A model generated the notes under the pieces. It was not told the DNA's origin. It saw nothing but the letters and a program-made list of their open reading frames with translations, and searched no databases. DNA of 36,855 bases from a virus: the IMG/VR virus record IMGVR_UViG_3300036985_001434, positions 1 to 36,855 of that record; one strand, 5' to 3'. How positions within the stretch are numbered: the first letter of the stretch is position 1; each line of letters begins with the position of its first letter. The translations under genes and the position numbers were made by a program. Shown here one piece after another: positions 2,001 to 33,874 of the stretch.

Positions 2001-2818
2001 TTGGCAAAGAATCTTGGATTAACTCCTCTTGCTCTCTTCTCAATCCCTCCATCCAATGGTGGGATAACTCCTCCTCTTACCAGTGATGGCATAGGCTTCC
2101 CTGCGTGGGGATTCTTCTGAATGATTCCTGCCTCTGTTGCCTCCTTCAATAAGACATCTGATAGGTTGAGGAATGTCCCTGCCTTATCCTTTGATTTGAG
2201 TCTCTCTCCACTGCTCTTATCCTTCACCACAAATGCACCATCTTCTTCGATGTCTAACAGATACTTGTCAGAGATTGCACTCTTGAATCCTCGTATGGTA
2301 AACTCATTTACCGATGGGTCTAACTTGATGGAGGATAACTCCTTATCAAAGGTATGGTTAATCTTGGATGTCTTTTGCTCTTCTGCCATCTTAATCTTGA
2401 ACTGCTCAAACTGGTTGATAGCATCTTGTCTTGCAGTATCCACTTCTGTTACCTTCTTCTCAAGAGTCTTGTATTTCTTCTCCCAATCCCTAACTAATTC
2501 CTCACTGCCAGTGTTAGTGGCTCGTTTCTCCCAATCCTCTCTCTGCTTCTCATACTCTGTCTTGGCTCGTTCTGATGCAGTACGAATCACCTCCTCTACT
2601 TTCTTATCCTTAAAGTCTTCCTCTGTCAAGGTAATGCCGAATGGCTCAAATGCCTTCCTTGTCACGTTAGAGATAGTCCCAGTAAGTTTGCCAATCTTGG
2701 CACTCATCTCCTTGGACTCAATCCAATTCTCTTGGAATTTCTCCTTTGCTTCTTCTACGTTTTCTGCTTCGTGCAGGTTGAGGAATTTCATCAACTCCAG
2801 TGCTTCTTCTGCTTTCAT
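1997..2818 (-). CDS. Probable capsid scaffold protein (273 aa)
   Basis: The protein is highly charged, with long Glu/Lys-rich heptads from about residue 55 to 155 consistent with coiled coil, no Cys and no transmembrane segment. The C-terminus is basic (RARGVNPRFFAK), as expected for the capsid-binding end of a scaffold. It lies after portal and head genes and before the capsid gene, the standard scaffold position. The start at 2818 is the first ATG after an in-frame stop, and the gene ends in an ATGA overlap with the 49-aa gene. Assignment rests on composition and context, not a sequence motif. Confidence 0.65.
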   Translation of the reverse strand: MKAEEALELMKFLNLHEAENVEEAKEKFQENWIESKEMSAKIGKLTGTISNVTRKAFEPFGITLTEEDFKDKKVEEVIRTASERAKTEYEKQREDWEKRATNTGSEELVRDWEKKYKTLEKKVTEVDTARQDAINQFEQFKIKMAEEQKTSKINHTFDKELSSIKLDPSVNEFTIRGFKSAISDKYLLDIEEDGAFVVKDKSSGERLKSKDKAGTFLNLSDVLLKEATEAGIIQKNPHAGKPMPSLVRGGVIPPLDGGIEKRARGVNPRFFAK

Positions 2819-2945
2819 TGTTGTCTATTATTGGTGTATTGATTTGCTTCAATTTTAACTCCCTTGCTCCCCTCTTAATTAGTTCTTTGGCAAGGATGTC
2901 ATTGGCTCTTTTGATAGTGCCATCAGATAAGATGTAGAATCTCAT
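2718..2945 (-). CDS. Small basic ORF at the head of the scaffold operon (75 aa)
   Basis: This frame starts at ATG 2945, only 4 nt after the -7 box of the promoter at 2950-2981, which is the main reason to accept it. The first 40 or so residues (MRFYILSDGTIKRANDILAK) look like a protein; the rest overlaps the scaffold start by about 100 nt in another frame and is Arg-rich, so the end may not matter. Its main use may be translation of a near-leaderless transcript leading into scaffold. Confidence 0.45.
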   Translation of the reverse strand: MRFYILSDGTIKRANDILAKELIKRGARELKLKQINTPIIDNNESRRSTGVDEIPQPARSRKRRRSKGEIPRELD

Positions 2946-2949
2946 TGCT

Positions 2950-2981
2950 CAAAGGTAAGTAATTTGATTATGCAAATCAAA
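2950..2981 (-). promoter_or_regulatory. Bacteroidota-type promoter of the scaffold operon
   Basis: The minus strand reads TTTG (2978-2981), a 20-nt spacer, then TACCTTTG (2950-2957): a full match to TTTG-N19-20-TAnnTTTG. The next ATG is 4 nt past the box, so the transcript would have little or no leader. The terminator at 2984-3012 abuts it and insulates it from transcription antisense to the glycosyltransferase gene. Confidence 0.7.
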
Positions 2982-2983
2982 AC

Positions 2984-3012
2984 AAAAAAGCCTACTTATT
3001 AGGTAGGCTTTG
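2984..3012 (-). terminator. Terminator, left copy flanking the glycosyltransferase cassette
   Basis: The minus strand has stem AAAGCCTAC/GTAGGCTTT with a 7-nt loop and a T-run. The 29 bases are identical to 4482-4510 in the same orientation. The two copies bracket the only plus-strand gene. Confidence 0.85.
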
Positions 3013-3052
3013 ATAATTTGTTTTTTCATAGATTTACATTTTCATAATCACT

Positions 3053-4435
3053 ATGATAGGTATAGCAATAACCACTCACAATCGAAGAGATACTGCCTTG
3101 CAAACTTTTGATAAGTGGAAATCAATGCTTCCCGATGGAGCAATAATCATAGTAGTTGATGATGCAAGTGATGAACCATATCCAAATGCTGACTATCGCT
3201 TTGATTTAAATGTAGGGATTTCCAAAGCAAAGAACAAGTGTATTGAGTTACTTATTGAACGTGGATGTGATGAATTATTTTTGGCTGATGATGATTGTTA
3301 TCCTACTTCTGCAAACTGGTGGAAAGCATACACTGATAGTCCATATCCATTGCTATCATATACATTCTCTGTTGTGGCAAAAAGGATTCACAATGGCAAT
3401 AGGCTGATTAAAAAAGATGATTCACACAAGTGGTATTCAAATCCTTGTGGATGTATGGTATATATCAACAAGATTGTGGTAGATAAGATTGGTGGATACG
3501 ATGTTGAGTATTCGATGTACGGAGATGAGCATCTTGATTATGCTATTCGTGCAAAGAATGTAGGTCTTATTCCATATCCTTATATGGATGTATCTAATCC
3601 TCTATTCTATTGCCTTGATGAGATTGGTAATTATCGCACATCAAGAATAGATTCAGCAGCACAGAGTTATCTAAGTCATAGAAGACTATCTAAGCAAAAA
3701 GATAGTAAGGCATTTATGACCTATCAAGAATCATCTAATGATTTACAAAAATCATATGTGCTATCCAGTTACTTTAATTATGCCAATTGTCCACAAAGAA
3801 AAGTTCAATTACCTAATTCATTGGATGCACTTTTGCCATTGATAAATAGTTGTAATGATTTGGGCATTCGACTGGTAATCTTAACCAATTGCGAATTTGA
3901 TAATCAAGGCACTACAGAATTTGTAAAGATTGAGAATACAGATAAAGATTTTACTCCAAACGATTTTCGTTGGCTCATTCAATTAGATTACATTCAGAAG
4001 AATAGAGCAAGCCATATATGGTGCGTGGATGCTACTGATGTTGAACTGCTTAAAAATCCATTCGATATTGATAATAACAAAATCTATGTAGGCAATGAAA
4101 AAAAAGAAACACTGGCTAATCGATGGCTATGGGATTATCAATTGAGATACTGCAGGAATCGAAACTATATTAAGATGTTCAGAGATTCAAAGCAATTAAA
4201 TCTTTTAAATTGTGGAGTTGTAGGTGGTAGTTATTCGATTGCTCTTAGATTCTTTCAACTAATGGCAAACGAGATTTATCATAATGCAAGGAATATAAAT
4301 AGAGCAATGGATATGGCTACATTTAATTATGTAGTCTATTCTCATTTTGCCAATCAATTTATTACTGGTGATGATGTTGTAACTGAGTTTAAATCATACC
4401 AAAGAAATAACGTGGCAATGTTTAAGCACAAATAG
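3053..4435 (+). CDS. Two-domain glycosyltransferase, only plus-strand gene (460 aa)
   Basis: Residues 1-200 form a GT-A (family 2-like) glycosyltransferase: ITTHNRRDTA at the start, VVDDASD at 34-40, the NVGISKAKN nucleotide-site segment, and a metal-binding acidic cluster LADDDCYP at 78-84. Residues from about 235 onward look like a second, unrelated transferase domain: LDALLPLINSC, then IWCVDATDVELLKNPF with a DxxD pair, and NCGVVGG. It likely adds sugars to a phage or host glycan. It runs against all its neighbours, is A+T-rich, and lies between identical terminators (2984-3012 and 4482-4510), so it looks like an acquired cassette. No good promoter was found in the 40 nt upstream. Confidence 0.85.
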   Translation: MIGIAITTHNRRDTALQTFDKWKSMLPDGAIIIVVDDASDEPYPNADYRFDLNVGISKAKNKCIELLIERGCDELFLADDDCYPTSANWWKAYTDSPYPLLSYTFSVVAKRIHNGNRLIKKDDSHKWYSNPCGCMVYINKIVVDKIGGYDVEYSMYGDEHLDYAIRAKNVGLIPYPYMDVSNPLFYCLDEIGNYRTSRIDSAAQSYLSHRRLSKQKDSKAFMTYQESSNDLQKSYVLSSYFNYANCPQRKVQLPNSLDALLPLINSCNDLGIRLVILTNCEFDNQGTTEFVKIENTDKDFTPNDFRWLIQLDYIQKNRASHIWCVDATDVELLKNPFDIDNNKIYVGNEKKETLANRWLWDYQLRYCRNRNYIKMFRDSKQLNLLNCGVVGGSYSIALRFFQLMANEIYHNARNINRAMDMATFNYVVYSHFANQFITGDDVVTEFKSYQRNNVAMFKHK

Positions 4436-30251: not shown

Positions 30252-30317
30252 AAAAAAGTGAATTATTTTTTGCAGTATTTTATAACTGCTTAATTATGTG
30301 CTAATTAAAATTCACTT
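30252..30317 (-). terminator. Large branched terminator at the end of the late/lysis region
   Basis: Outer stem AAGTGAATT/AATTCACTT (30309-30317 with 30256-30264) encloses an inner hairpin GCAGT/ACTGC (30285-30289 with 30272-30276), and a T-run follows on the minus strand. The outer stem starts inside the last codons of the 229-aa gene. Confidence 0.65.
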
Positions 30318-31001
30318 AGATGCAAATAGCATCAATCCTCCTCCGAAGATTGCACCAAATGCAAACATAAATCCTTTAGATTCCCACCACTTTCGCTCCT
30401 CACGAATGTAGATATTAGACATACCAGTAATAGACATAGTAGGATTATCTATGCTCAAACGCACTACCTTATCCCTTCTGCCAATAATCTTCGAAATAAA
30501 GCCTTCTCTTGCACTATCTCCCACTGCATAGGTCAAAGTACCATATGATGCAATTGAGTCGATTTGAAGCAGTCCTAAACGATTAATCTTGCCATCTATC
30601 GTGAACCACTTATCTACCTTGCTGAATTCTCTTGGCAGTTTAAGATGTGGAAACGAGTCTATGTAGACTGGCTCACCTAACTGAATCTCTGTCTTTACGA
30701 TTGTCTTGGTCTTGACCTTGACCAATTCCTGTAAGTGGGATAGTCTCAGTTTATCTGCCTCTTCTTGCAGCATCTTGATGGCAGTCTCGTTGTTCAGTAT
30801 AGTCTGCTTCTGCGAATACACTACCACTGAATCATCATAGATTCGTTTGGTGAATTCATCATTAGCACTGCTTAGTTCAGTGATATCATCGTGCAGGATT
30901 AGATTGGTCTGACAAGTAGATATCAATACCATCATAAGTATAATTATGATGATTGCCATCAGTATCTTAGTTGGGTCAAAATCAAATTGGGCAGTATCCA
31001 T
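30312..31001 (-). CDS. Membrane protein with coiled coil, possible spanin-like role (229 aa)
   Basis: An N-terminal membrane segment (ILMAIIIIILMMVLISTC, about 14-31) precedes a coiled coil (NETAIKMLQEEADKLRLSHL), a beta domain (KVDKWFTIDGKINRLGLLQI) and a C-terminal hydrophobic helix (FMFAFGAIFGGGLMLFASK). Two membrane anchors flanking a periplasmic coiled coil/beta region in the lysis neighbourhood recall u-spanins or Rz-like proteins, but no lipobox was found. Overlaps the 69-aa gene by 20 nt. Confidence 0.65.
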   Translation of the reverse strand: MDTAQFDFDPTKILMAIIIIILMMVLISTCQTNLILHDDITELSSANDEFTKRIYDDSVVVYSQKQTILNNETAIKMLQEEADKLRLSHLQELVKVKTKTIVKTEIQLGEPVYIDSFPHLKLPREFSKVDKWFTIDGKINRLGLLQIDSIASYGTLTYAVGDSAREGFISKIIGRRDKVVRLSIDNPTMSITGMSNIYIREERKWWESKGFMFAFGAIFGGGLMLFASK

Positions 31002-31191
31002 CAGTGATGTATAACATTAGTTGGTTAATCCTATCTTGCATTATCTCCTTCTGTTTAATGCCATCCATCAGCACATTGATGGCAGTGTTAATTGGCATCC
31101 CTCTTTCAATTACATATAGTGCTGCTACCTTTACCAGTCGCTCATCGCAATCTTCATCAGTCTTTGGTAGATATTTAGCAGCATCAATCAT
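30982..31191 (-). CDS. Small helical protein after the PAS-HisKA gene (69 aa)
   Basis: Function not recognised. Residues 10-60 are helical (DCDERLVKVAALYVIERGMP, INVLMDGIKQKEIMQDRINQ), without an ATP-binding or receiver motif. It overlaps the PAS-HisKA gene by 4 nt and so is probably translated with it, which makes it a possible partner. Confidence 0.65.
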   Translation of the reverse strand: MIDAAKYLPKTDEDCDERLVKVAALYVIERGMPINTAINVLMDGIKQKEIMQDRINQLMLYITDGYCPI

Positions 31192-31754
31192 ATCTGCCTT
31201 GCTGCCTTTCGTACCAGTAACTTAATTACCTCATCCAGTCTGTTAACTGAATCATCAATCATTGCCATTAATTCCTGCTTCTCCTTATCACTTGCTTGTG
31301 CATTATCCTTTAGCATCCTCACCAATCCTCCTATAGATGTCAATGGTTGCCTCAATTCGTGCGATAGCATAAATCTAAACTCCTCCAGTAATATCTTCTG
31401 CCTCTCGTGTTCGTGGGCAGCAATGGATGTAACATCAATAATCTGCATACCAACAAAGTGTAAGCAGTCCAAGATAGTATAAATATTCCAAATGTTATAA
31501 CGCAGACTACCAGTCTTCTGCTTAGTCTTGGCATATACTCGTATTGGTTCGGGAGATTTATTCTTGCTCTTGTTGATGGCAGTAATCAAATCATCCCTAT
31601 CAACATCAGTGGCAGCAATGTCGGCAATGTTTTTTGGCTTGATGTGGCTTATGTATTCTTTGAATAAGTCATTGGATGAGACTATATTGCCATCCTGCGT
31701 TGTGACAAGGTAAAAGACATCTATCGAATTGTCCAGTATGTACAACAATGACAT
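31188..31754 (-). CDS. PAS-HisKA protein lacking a kinase (ATPase) domain (188 aa)
   Basis: Residues 8-108 form a PAS sensor domain (FYLVTTQDGNIVSSNDLF, then NIWNIYTILDCLHFVGMQII). Residues 112-183 form a histidine-kinase dimerisation helix pair with the H-box FMLSHELRQPLTSIGGL; the phospho-acceptor would be H132. The protein ends soon after the second helix (VNRLDEVIKLLVRK), so the N/G1/F/G2 boxes of HATPase_c are absent, and neither the next gene nor other frames supply them. It could form mixed dimers with a host kinase or accept phosphate in trans. It lies in the lysis region with TAA/ATG spacing of 20 nt to the gene upstream. Confidence 0.85.
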   Translation of the reverse strand: MSLLYILDNSIDVFYLVTTQDGNIVSSNDLFKEYISHIKPKNIADIAATDVDRDDLITAINKSKNKSPEPIRVYAKTKQKTGSLRYNIWNIYTILDCLHFVGMQIIDVTSIAAHEHERQKILLEEFRFMLSHELRQPLTSIGGLVRMLKDNAQASDKEKQELMAMIDDSVNRLDEVIKLLVRKAARQI

Positions 31755-31774
31755 ATCACAAAGATAGTTAAAAC

Positions 31775-32224
31775 CTATCCTCTGCTCATCTCTTGCTTCA
31801 AATCATTAATCAAGTTTGCCCAATGTGGCACACAATCTACTGCATATTTGATGGTAAGGTAGATGGTGAATATCAATACTAATCCGTTTACTGGTACATC
31901 ATATGACATAGGCACATTCATATTTGGCTCAATACTTACACTATGAGATTGGGTCTGATACGTTGAGTCTTCAGTTAAAGATACAACATTATTCTGAATC
32001 GTATCTATGGCTATGTGCTTTGGCTCAATGGATTTAATCACTGCTAATGGCTCGTGTTCGATATGTTCAATGTGCTGCGTATCCAGTGCTAATTGATTGG
32101 AAGAATCATTGGTAACTACCATTGCACTGGTTGCATTTATTGCACTATCAATATCAATCTTCTTAACGATTGAATGGTTCTTGCATCTACCATAATGGAT
32201 GCATATGATTGTGTCTTTAGGCAT
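31775..32224 (-). CDS. Membrane-anchored protein of the lysis region (149 aa)
   Basis: I start at ATG 32224 (MPKDTIICIHYGRCKNH), which overlaps the holin-like gene's stop by 8 nt. A polar, Ser/Thr/Asp/His-rich middle (TQHIEHIEHEPLAVIKSIEP) is followed by one C-terminal membrane helix GLVLIFTIYLTIKYAVDCV near residues 112-130. Function unknown; context suggests the cell envelope. Confidence 0.65.
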   Translation of the reverse strand: MPKDTIICIHYGRCKNHSIVKKIDIDSAINATSAMVVTNDSSNQLALDTQHIEHIEHEPLAVIKSIEPKHIAIDTIQNNVVSLTEDSTYQTQSHSVSIEPNMNVPMSYDVPVNGLVLIFTIYLTIKYAVDCVPHWANLINDLKQEMSRG

Positions 32225-32423
32225 CTCCCTCATCTTGGTTTGCTTTAGGTATATATCCTGCTGCCAATAATGCTGCAACAATTCCTGCCAATGTCTCTAC
32301 CTCAATCTTTTTTAGGATAAGCATATAGATGGATACCAGTATTGTCAATGAACCAATGGTAGGTCTCCAATGCTTAACAATGATATCAACTATCCTTCTT
32401 GCTTTAGTAGTCTTCCTTGGCAT
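32217..32423 (-). CDS. Holin-like small membrane protein (68 aa)
   Basis: A basic start (MPRKTTKARRIVDIIVKHW) is followed by two likely membrane helices: TIGSLTILVSIYMLILKK (22-39) and TLAGIVAALLAAGYIPK (44-60), then a short acidic tail. Two-helix size, charge pattern and direct proximity to lysozyme support a class II-type holin. Not confirmed by any motif. Confidence 0.65.
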   Translation of the reverse strand: MPRKTTKARRIVDIIVKHWRPTIGSLTILVSIYMLILKKIEVETLAGIVAALLAAGYIPKANQDEGDA

Positions 32424-32454: not shown

Positions 32455-32472
32455 TGATGCATCTATGCATCA
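32455..32472. repeat. Perfect palindrome at the lysozyme stop codon
   Basis: TGATGCAT (32455-32462) and ATGCATCA (32465-32472) are perfect 8-bp inverted arms with a 2-nt spacer. The lysozyme TGA (32472-32470) lies in one arm. With only 2 nt for a loop, the RNA hairpin would open a few pairs; a protein-binding palindrome or mRNA 3' structure are both possible. Confidence 0.6.
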
Positions 32473-32928
32473 GAAATTACACAATGAGAAATAGAGATTT
32501 GCCTCTTCTCGTCTGCGATTGCTTAAACCAGTAAGCACCTTCCCTGCTGCCTTGTTCCACTTCAAAAACTCATCAAGTATAGATGGGTCATTGGGATTAA
32601 TTTTTGCCTTCTTGAGCAATGTAGATTTAATCAACCCACCAGTACCTACATTATAGGCAAATGATACCAAGGCATCAAATTGGCATTGATTTAGATTAGG
32701 CAGATGCTTATTCACTGCTGACTCGTATGGCTCAAGTGTAGATAGCAGCAGTTGTGTTGCCTCCTTCTCACTGCTCAACTTCTCTCCCAATAATACCTTC
32801 TTGCCATTGGGATACTTGGTTGTCCCATAGCCAATGGTAACTACTGATGCAGGGCAAAGATATGCAGATAGTCGCAGTCCTTCATACTTCTTAATTAGAT
32901 TCAATCCAAGAGAAGATGTGGAGCGCAT
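32470..32928 (-). CDS. Endolysin, T4-type lysozyme (GH24, 152 aa)
   Basis: A peptidoglycan muramidase. The triad region reads E16-x8-C25-x5-T31 (KKYEGLRLSAYLCPASVVTI), so the usual Asp is replaced by Cys as in some phage lysozymes. Family motifs IGYGTTK and LPNLNQCQFDALVSFAYNVG follow, and it ends LTGLSNRRREEANLYFS. No signal peptide or SAR helix is evident, so release likely depends on the holin. ATG 32928 is 1 nt past the fibre stop. Confidence 0.93.
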   Translation of the reverse strand: MRSTSSLGLNLIKKYEGLRLSAYLCPASVVTIGYGTTKYPNGKKVLLGEKLSSEKEATQLLLSTLEPYESAVNKHLPNLNQCQFDALVSFAYNVGTGGLIKSTLLKKAKINPNDPSILDEFLKWNKAAGKVLTGLSNRRREEANLYFSLCNF

Positions 32929-32929
32929 A

Positions 32930-33874
32930 TTATTTGTACCAAAATACATCTATAAATGCACCTTGCAATAATGCATTGGCAGCACCACTATTACCCCTTG
33001 TATAAATAGAAACTTGAACTTGACTTGCAGATATTATCGAAACTTGTGCTGAAATATGCACTCCCGATGTACTGCTACCACTTGTAGCCATTACCTTTAC
33101 TTTATCTGCAGAACTTGGCATAAAAAGAGTAAGCACTCCAACATTATAAGTAATATGATAATGCCCAGTTGCTTGGTAGGTAATAGTTTTAGTAACCAAA
33201 TCCCCTACTTGGGTTTCAAAAACTGCATCTTCAGTTGGCGCACTTGTTCCAGTTTGACTATATTTACAAGAGTCATTAAAATAATGAGTCGGCAATGGAG
33301 TCCAAGATTTTGCAATTGAACCACCATTAGAAATGTATGGAATTCCATTCCTATCCTTAATCTCCCTTCCTGCATCGGCATTTGGATATGATGGTGTTGG
33401 GTTTGTATCAATGCCATATAATACCCTGCTATTATTAAATGCCGCAAAAGATGCAATTATATTACTCGTTCCCGTTCCTAATGTATCATTCCTTAAAATT
33501 AAATCCCCACCCCTCAAATACAATTCAAGAGTTTCTGAAAGGGAAGAATTAAAGAACGTAATAGTAGGATAATCTGCAAAACCATCGTTAAATTCACCCC
33601 CTAATGAAATTGTGTTCCCACTTGGATAAGTAAATATAATTCTTGCACCTTTTGTACCCCCTGCATCACAATCAATAACTCCAGTTACATTGCCTTGTCC
33701 ACCAGTTGTTGTCCCATCTAAATGAATATAAGGTAATGCGGTTGATAAAGCATTGGCAATTGTTTGCAAATCAACTTGCTTGGATTGATTAGCCGATGCT
33801 TCCACAACATAGAAGATGTCTGCTAAATCTGCTGCTGATAATACTGGTAAGTCAGTAACTTTTACTCCTGCCAT
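32930..33874 (-). CDS. Tail-fibre / receptor-binding-like protein (314 aa)
   Basis: The N-terminus (VKVTDLPVLSAADLADIFYV, then SANQSKQVDLQTIANAL) matches the virion-attachment end of fibre proteins common in phages of Bacteroidota. The remainder is beta-rich and Gly/Thr/Ser-rich, ending in a jelly-roll-like domain (YQATGHYHITYNVGVLTLFM, FIDVFWYK), likely the receptor tip. The codon use in the middle of the gene (more CCC, GGG-type triplets) differs from neighbours, hinting at recent exchange. Confidence 0.75.
   Translation of the reverse strand: MAGVKVTDLPVLSAADLADIFYVVEASANQSKQVDLQTIANALSTALPYIHLDGTTTGGQGNVTGVIDCDAGGTKGARIIFTYPSGNTISLGGEFNDGFADYPTITFFNSSLSETLELYLRGGDLILRNDTLGTGTSNIIASFAAFNNSRVLYGIDTNPTPSYPNADAGREIKDRNGIPYISNGGSIAKSWTPLPTHYFNDSCKYSQTGTSAPTEDAVFETQVGDLVTKTITYQATGHYHITYNVGVLTLFMPSSADKVKVMATSGSSTSGVHISAQVSIISASQVQVSIYTRGNSGAANALLQGAFIDVFWYK

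Follow-up and report, generated by a model that had tools for sequence, protein, structure and literature searches.

We find that the window, a 36,855-nt stretch of viral DNA that makes up IMG/VR record IMGVR_UViG_3300036985_001434, carries among its lysis genes a gene for a stand-alone 188-aa protein, in which a PAS-fold domain is followed by a DHp (HisKA) domain and no HATPase (Table 1). The gene is present in at least about 150 viral contigs, as judged from pattern scans of IMG/VR, and is under strong purifying selection. With modest support, sequence comparison suggests that the phage protein belongs to a class of Bacteroidota sensor proteins that end in a DHp and have no ATPase domain. 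The ATPase-less form was probably inherited and not made by truncation in the phage, since the closest relatives in cells lack that domain too. We predict that the protein acts as a sensor-gated phospho-accepting or phosphotransfer module in host His-Asp signalling, a reading that we hold at about an even chance.

HisKA was recognized in the window protein (P0001) by Pfam (E=1.8e-10; 41.2 bits, the cut-off being 26.9), the PhoR/PnpS models of NCBIfam cover residues 15-180, and a profile of the protein matched the structure of the ThkA PAS-kinase (3a0r, E 5e-5). The PAS domain was not called by Pfam at the sequence level and is seen in the fold: an AlphaFold2 model for which 12 phage sequences were used (mean pLDDT 78) gives a PAS fold and then two long helices, with confident secondary structure and an inter-domain geometry that is not confident (pTM 0.50). 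The top Foldseek matches of the model are LOV-histidine kinase chimeras, and VIA-align matched the PAS part to PAS structures (ARNT PAS-B; Z 13.9, rmsd 2.2, 94 aligned residues). As the VIA-align matches span the PAS part alone (residues 5-106), the DHp fold is taken from the sequence families and the model. H132 lies within FMLSHELRQPLTSIGGL, in the H-box LSHELRQPL, with an acid at H+1 (E133) and Q136 at H+4 in place of T/N. An earlier note on this DNA had described a PAS sensor with an intact H-box around H132 and a protein that stops before any HATPase; we agree on both counts, as Pfam gives HisKA and no HATPase in the gene, and the model gives the PAS fold. The plus strand of 31188-31754 is closed, with stops throughout.

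Table 1. Features of the PAS-DHp locus in the window
Feature	Position	Strand	Basis or remark
229-aa protein, N-terminal TM segment, weakly spanin-like	30312..31001	minus	spanin PHROGs E 0.09-0.4
69-aa gene, predicted three-helix bundle	30982..31191	minus	ATG overlaps PAS-DHp stop (ATGA, 31188-31191)
PAS-DHp (HisKA) gene, 188 aa, without HATPase	31188..31754	minus	Pfam, NCBIfam, structure match, AlphaFold2 model
DHp helix alpha2, residues 156-187	31194..31289	minus	AlphaFold2 model
DHp helix alpha1, residues 113-150, H-box FRFMLSHELRQPLTSIGGL	31305..31418	minus	AlphaFold2 model; conservation
H132 codon, predicted phospho-acceptor	31359..31361	minus	His in all readable relatives listed
PAS-fold domain, residues ~11-106	31437..31724	minus	AlphaFold2 model; Foldseek and VIA-align PAS matches
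Bacteroidota -7 promoter box TAnnTTTG, TATCTTTG	31759..31766	minus	first base at -12 from ATG
TM protein, segment near C-terminus, 168 aa from TTG, shorter from ATG	31775..32281	minus	
68-aa holin-like small membrane protein	32217..32423	minus	two hydrophobic stretches, one clear and one weaker
T4-type lysozyme (endolysin)	32470..32949	minus	Pfam Phage_lysozyme E 1.8e-37; PHROG endolysin

The viral relatives were gathered by two DNA-pattern scans of IMG/VR. All first-pattern matches listed are one phage protein of 188-189 aa, some of them with an alternative upstream start and a few clipped by the contig end, and wherever the C-terminal end is visible among the matches listed it falls 57-58 residues past the His. 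The first pattern permitted only E/K at H+1, R/S at H+3 and Q/K at H+4, and the residues met at these positions among its matches listed are E, R and Q only, so that part of this invariance could be due to query selection. The second pattern left out the H-box, and the His was thus not preselected; it is kept in 156 of 156 readable members among the matches listed, the other two matches listed being one copy clipped by the contig end and one frameshifted copy. The latter (L022, 4994-5353) is the sole broken-frame copy seen among the matches listed and reflects a frameshift or an assembly error. The motif S131-H-E-x-R-Q-P-L-T is invariant in all 95 distinct main-clade proteins listed, at identities down to 51%, and synonymous turnover of the His codon is free (CAT in 52 and CAC in 43 of these proteins); the median dN/dS of the main clade, among the matches listed, is 0.075.

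No HATPase_c was found in the six frames of the window or of 17 related phage records, nor in the 53-kb record of a diverged subclade described below. The statement of the earlier note that the neighbours supply no HATPase thus holds for all six frames of the window, and a frameshift hiding such a domain, which it had named as a possible refutation, did not occur in the window or in these 18 further phage records. Nor were full-length kinases, its other possible refutation, met among the viral relatives listed, all of which are the same short protein. A search of the related phage records for Response_reg gave no clear match, and the sole signal of this kind was sub-threshold (15.9 bits; L213, in the record of L071, 27355-27537) and confined to one record.

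The diverged subclade (subclade B) was found with patterns for the bacterial-type H-box and consists of four viral contigs (L254, L255, L256 and L260), with three complete relatives of 187-189 aa. The L255 protein, the only one compared with P0001, is 37% identical to it. The H-box of the subclade reads (A/S)W(I/V)QSHKVRKPLAN, which means that it retains the His, R(+3) and P(+5) and has K at both H+1 and H+4.

Cellular matches were collected by one scan of genome contigs, from four seed genomes and by a search of 247 Bacteroidota genomes, and were classed by tail length after the DHp and by the G-box motif, with Pfam confirming six proteins. The 91 sampled matches comprise 36 ATPase-less proteins, 52 HATPase kinases and 3 others; as some of the 91 come from seed genomes that the phage query had itself picked out, 36 of 91 is not a census. 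The five best-scoring cellular matches are all ATPase-less (Mann-Whitney p=0.015), whereas in a control of 249 Pseudomonadota genomes the best 30 loci held no ATPase-less protein and 29 HATPase kinases (Fisher p=4e-6). The ATPase-less Bacteroidota proteins finish 2-26 residues past the DHp. Of the six confirmed by Pfam, three (L185, L186 and L189) are REC-PAS-DHp proteins, an architecture that invites phosphotransfer, as we would suggest; L164 of Filimonas zeae is PAS-PAS-DHp, and L207 is a 209-aa PAS-DHp protein whose DHp lies under the Pfam threshold. Further chromosomal proteins that end with the DHp and lack HATPase were seen with PAS, GAF, REC or other sensors (L159/L164, L185-L190, L207, L214, L217, L237 and others).

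T/N at H+4 occurs in none of 35 ATPase-less Bacteroidota proteins as against 15 of 52 HATPase kinases (p=2.5e-4), and H+1 is mixed and often non-acidic in the ATPase-less class, while the His, R(+3) and P(+5) are always kept, in the phage clades as in the bacterial class. Trees were built from the DHp alone (79 columns) and have modest support with many forks open; they set phage and ATPase-less proteins apart from the HATPase kinases (84/83), and the tree that includes subclade B places the phage proteins among those without an ATPase (89/86). The term 'truncated kinase', used in the earlier note, does not suit this gene, which is old and conserved in the phages and has its nearest relatives in cells among ATPase-less proteins.

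The earlier note had placed the gene in a lysis or late region, which agrees with the T4-type lysozyme and holin-like genes upstream. Counting, among the matches listed, only loci that extend far enough, the lysozyme flanks the PAS-DHp gene in 130 of 130, the 68-aa holin-like gene is present in 147 of 147, the gene for the 229-aa protein with the N-terminal TM segment in 133 of 133, the 69-aa gene in 144 of 145 and the gene for the C-terminal-TM protein in 129 of 149. Gene order around the PAS-DHp gene is constant across the loci listed, and the ATGA overlap between its stop and the ATG of the 69-aa gene is found in 129 of 153. The holin-like protein gave no convincing family match in Pfam or PHROG. 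The C-terminal-TM protein was considered as a unimolecular spanin and dropped, as no lipobox was seen by eye. The 69-aa protein is predicted with confidence to fold as a three-helix bundle, for which a PDB fold search returned no match with E under 1; the protein carries the motif DERLVKVAAxYVxERxMPxxVA. In subclade B, L255 retains the holin-like (E 2e-23) and TM (1e-8) genes, and a gene weakly resembling the 69-aa gene is present in L256 (4e-5) and L255 (0.002), all E-values being for an 11-sequence set. No lysozyme was found in the subclade B records searched, and none is adjacent to the PAS-DHp gene in L255. As neighbours are kept in subclade B, the stable unit consists of the holin-like gene, the TM protein gene, the PAS-DHp gene and probably the 69-aa gene. 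L255 also has two additional small genes (2690-3189, minus strand) between its 69-aa-like and spanin-like genes, one for a TM protein and the other for an HTH protein of Xre-like type.

TAnnTTTG is the -7 element of Bacteroidota sigma-ABfr (PMC7366714), and in Flavobacterium johnsoniae this element occupies positions -12 to -5 relative to the start of transcription (PMC6847099). Among the matches listed, the box has its first base exactly at -12 from the ATG in 44 of 80 distinct upstream regions, that of the window being one of them, and its density is 9.2 per kb in these upstream regions against 0.5-0.7 in the window. As the position of the box would put the transcription start at the ATG, the PAS-DHp gene probably has its own promoter and a leaderless transcript. 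Together with a weak match of the window's terminase to that of Flavobacterium phage 11b (31.8%), the box supports a Bacteroidota host, and the phages carrying the PAS-DHp gene probably infect Bacteroidota. A portal search for phage affinity returned nothing, and a tblastn search of annotated phage records gave no cultured member, its only matches being weak ones to the DHp in four Listeria phage records that lack annotation. Nearly all genes of the window lie on the minus strand; a phage-type glycosyltransferase gene (PHROG 1579, E 4e-96) is on the plus strand at 3053-4435.

We suggest that the protein would form a dimer via PAS/DHp, and that H132 would receive a phosphoryl group in trans from the ATPase domain of a host kinase, whether or not the two proteins form a mixed dimer, or alternatively from a host response regulator. 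The phosphate could then be passed on, held or diverted within the host His-Asp network, with the PAS domain gating the module by a host or infection cue. Placement with holin-like and membrane genes suggests late action on envelope or stress signalling; a step in lysis timing is speculation, drawn from gene position. In HisKA proteins, the kinase reaction requires an acid at H+1, and phosphatase activity requires T/N at H+4 (PMC3510030). As E133 is kept in the main clade, phosphorylation in trans by a host ATPase domain is possible there, but the H+1 acid is not kept in the bacterial class and subclade B, which argues against such phosphorylation as a general rule; in subclade B, the more likely route seems to be an exchange of phosphate with response regulators. 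It is conceivable as well that the conserved His could be structural. A wider form of our reading seems doubtful to us: a PAS-gated phosphotransfer module would tap the host His-Asp network and convey host or infection state to the timing of lysis, and it would represent the viral branch of an undescribed signalling class spread throughout Bacteroidota, in which DHp sensors without an ATPase trade phosphate with separately encoded kinases or regulators.

The main rival is a decoy or dominant-negative role, which is possible although we consider it unlikely. The DHp is a dimerisation and regulator-docking domain, and the phage protein might form mixed dimers with a specific host kinase or occupy a regulator docking surface, the His being kept as part of the interface. 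Such a role would fit both the absence of an ATPase from the phage and the variation at H+1 and H+4 in subclade B, where the helix core stays, and the targeting of kinase domains by the phage protein PIT4 (PMC10714779) is a precedent. However, the His is invariant at the 37% identity of subclade B and in the bacterial class, beyond what docking needs. The earlier note had proposed a search for host kinases with closely similar HisKA helices; no host kinase with near-identical DHp helices was met among the cellular matches sampled, of which the best were ATPase-less. We find it rather improbable that the protein is a phosphate-free sensor for lysis timing, whose PAS would sense redox, oxygen or a metabolite and whose DHp coiled-coil would act on the holin-like, TM or 69-aa protein. 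The neighbours fixed among the loci listed, the ATGA overlap with the 69-aa gene, and the holin-like, TM and weak 69-aa-like genes kept in subclade B all speak for it, yet it leaves the invariant H-x-x-R-x-P and the kinship to bacterial His-Asp proteins unexplained, and in L255 the lysozyme is neither adjacent nor found in the record. DHp domains are also the phosphatase site of bifunctional kinases. A response-regulator phosphatase draining phosphate from a host pathway, as the phrase 'drain phosphate' of the earlier note could be understood, is nevertheless very unlikely, since T/N is absent from H+4, which is Q in all main-clade members listed and K in subclade B, and since an N-to-Q change at this site of CrdS abolishes phosphatase activity (PMC3510030). 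That the phage picked up a degenerate or broken host kinase without function, to which the missing ATPase domain might point, is hardly credible, and a frameshifted kinase was ruled out, given the same length and the His in at least about 150 contigs, the low dN/dS, the single frameshifted copy among the matches listed and the lack of HATPase in six frames. Of these readings we favor the phosphotransfer module.

The individual parts described here are of known kinds. A literature search, which covered open-licence PMC papers and is no proof of novelty, returned nothing on phage PAS-HisKA proteins or on Bacteroidota HisKA proteins without HATPase; in these papers we have not found a description of the stand-alone conserved phage PAS-DHp protein, its place in the lysis cassette or the ATPase-less DHp class of Bacteroidota. 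Phage proteins acting on two-component systems are hardly known, and the 2023 paper on PIT4 stated that no direct interaction between a phage protein and a two-component system had been reported earlier (PMC10714779); here a whole lineage keeps half a kinase in its lysis cassette. If the PAS-DHp protein plugs into host signalling, it would directly link the sensing of host state to late infection. The analysis also brings to light Bacteroidota sensors that end in the DHp without an ATPase, a sizeable class that is absent from the best 30 loci of the Pseudomonadota sample, and the phage and host copies together amount to natural mutational data, in which H, R(+3) and P(+5) stay constant and H+1 and H+4 are free.

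Compared with HisKA kinases of the PhoR/PnpS and ThkA type (PF00512), the window protein has the same order of PAS and HisKA/DHp hairpin with an H-box, including the His and the H+1 acid, but neither it nor its phage has a HATPase_c, and Q replaces T/N at H+4. With the Spo0B, ChpT and HPt phosphotransferases it shares the lack of an active ATPase, a His on a helical-bundle dimer (Spo0B, ChpT) and, as a prediction for the phage protein, the role in phosphotransfer. Spo0B and ChpT retain a degenerate ATPase-like domain, whereas the phage protein has a PAS and no ATPase-like domain. Split histidine kinases such as Hik36-Hik43 (PMC7656254) likewise spread kinase functions over two polypeptides, but the phage encodes no ATPase partner. 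PIT4 of Pseudomonas phage LSL4, which binds host histidine kinase domains (PMC10714779), is a phage protein engaging host two-component kinases, as we propose for PAS-DHp; it is an early protein, not reported as PAS-DHp, and is likened by role and not by sequence. Viral proteins with a PAS/DHp-like fold match are found in Agrobacterium phage Atu_ph07 (A0A2L0UZB1) and an uncultured Caudovirales (A0A6J5L941), but these are full-length annotated histidine kinases of 528-536 aa with 12-17% identity. The ATPase-less Bacteroidota proteins (Filimonas zeae L159/L164, L207, L185, L186 and L189) resemble the phage protein in finishing near DHp alpha2, in H, R(+3) and P(+5) and in having no T/N at H+4; unlike it, they are chromosomal and usually longer, with more sensor domains and an H+1 that is often non-acidic.
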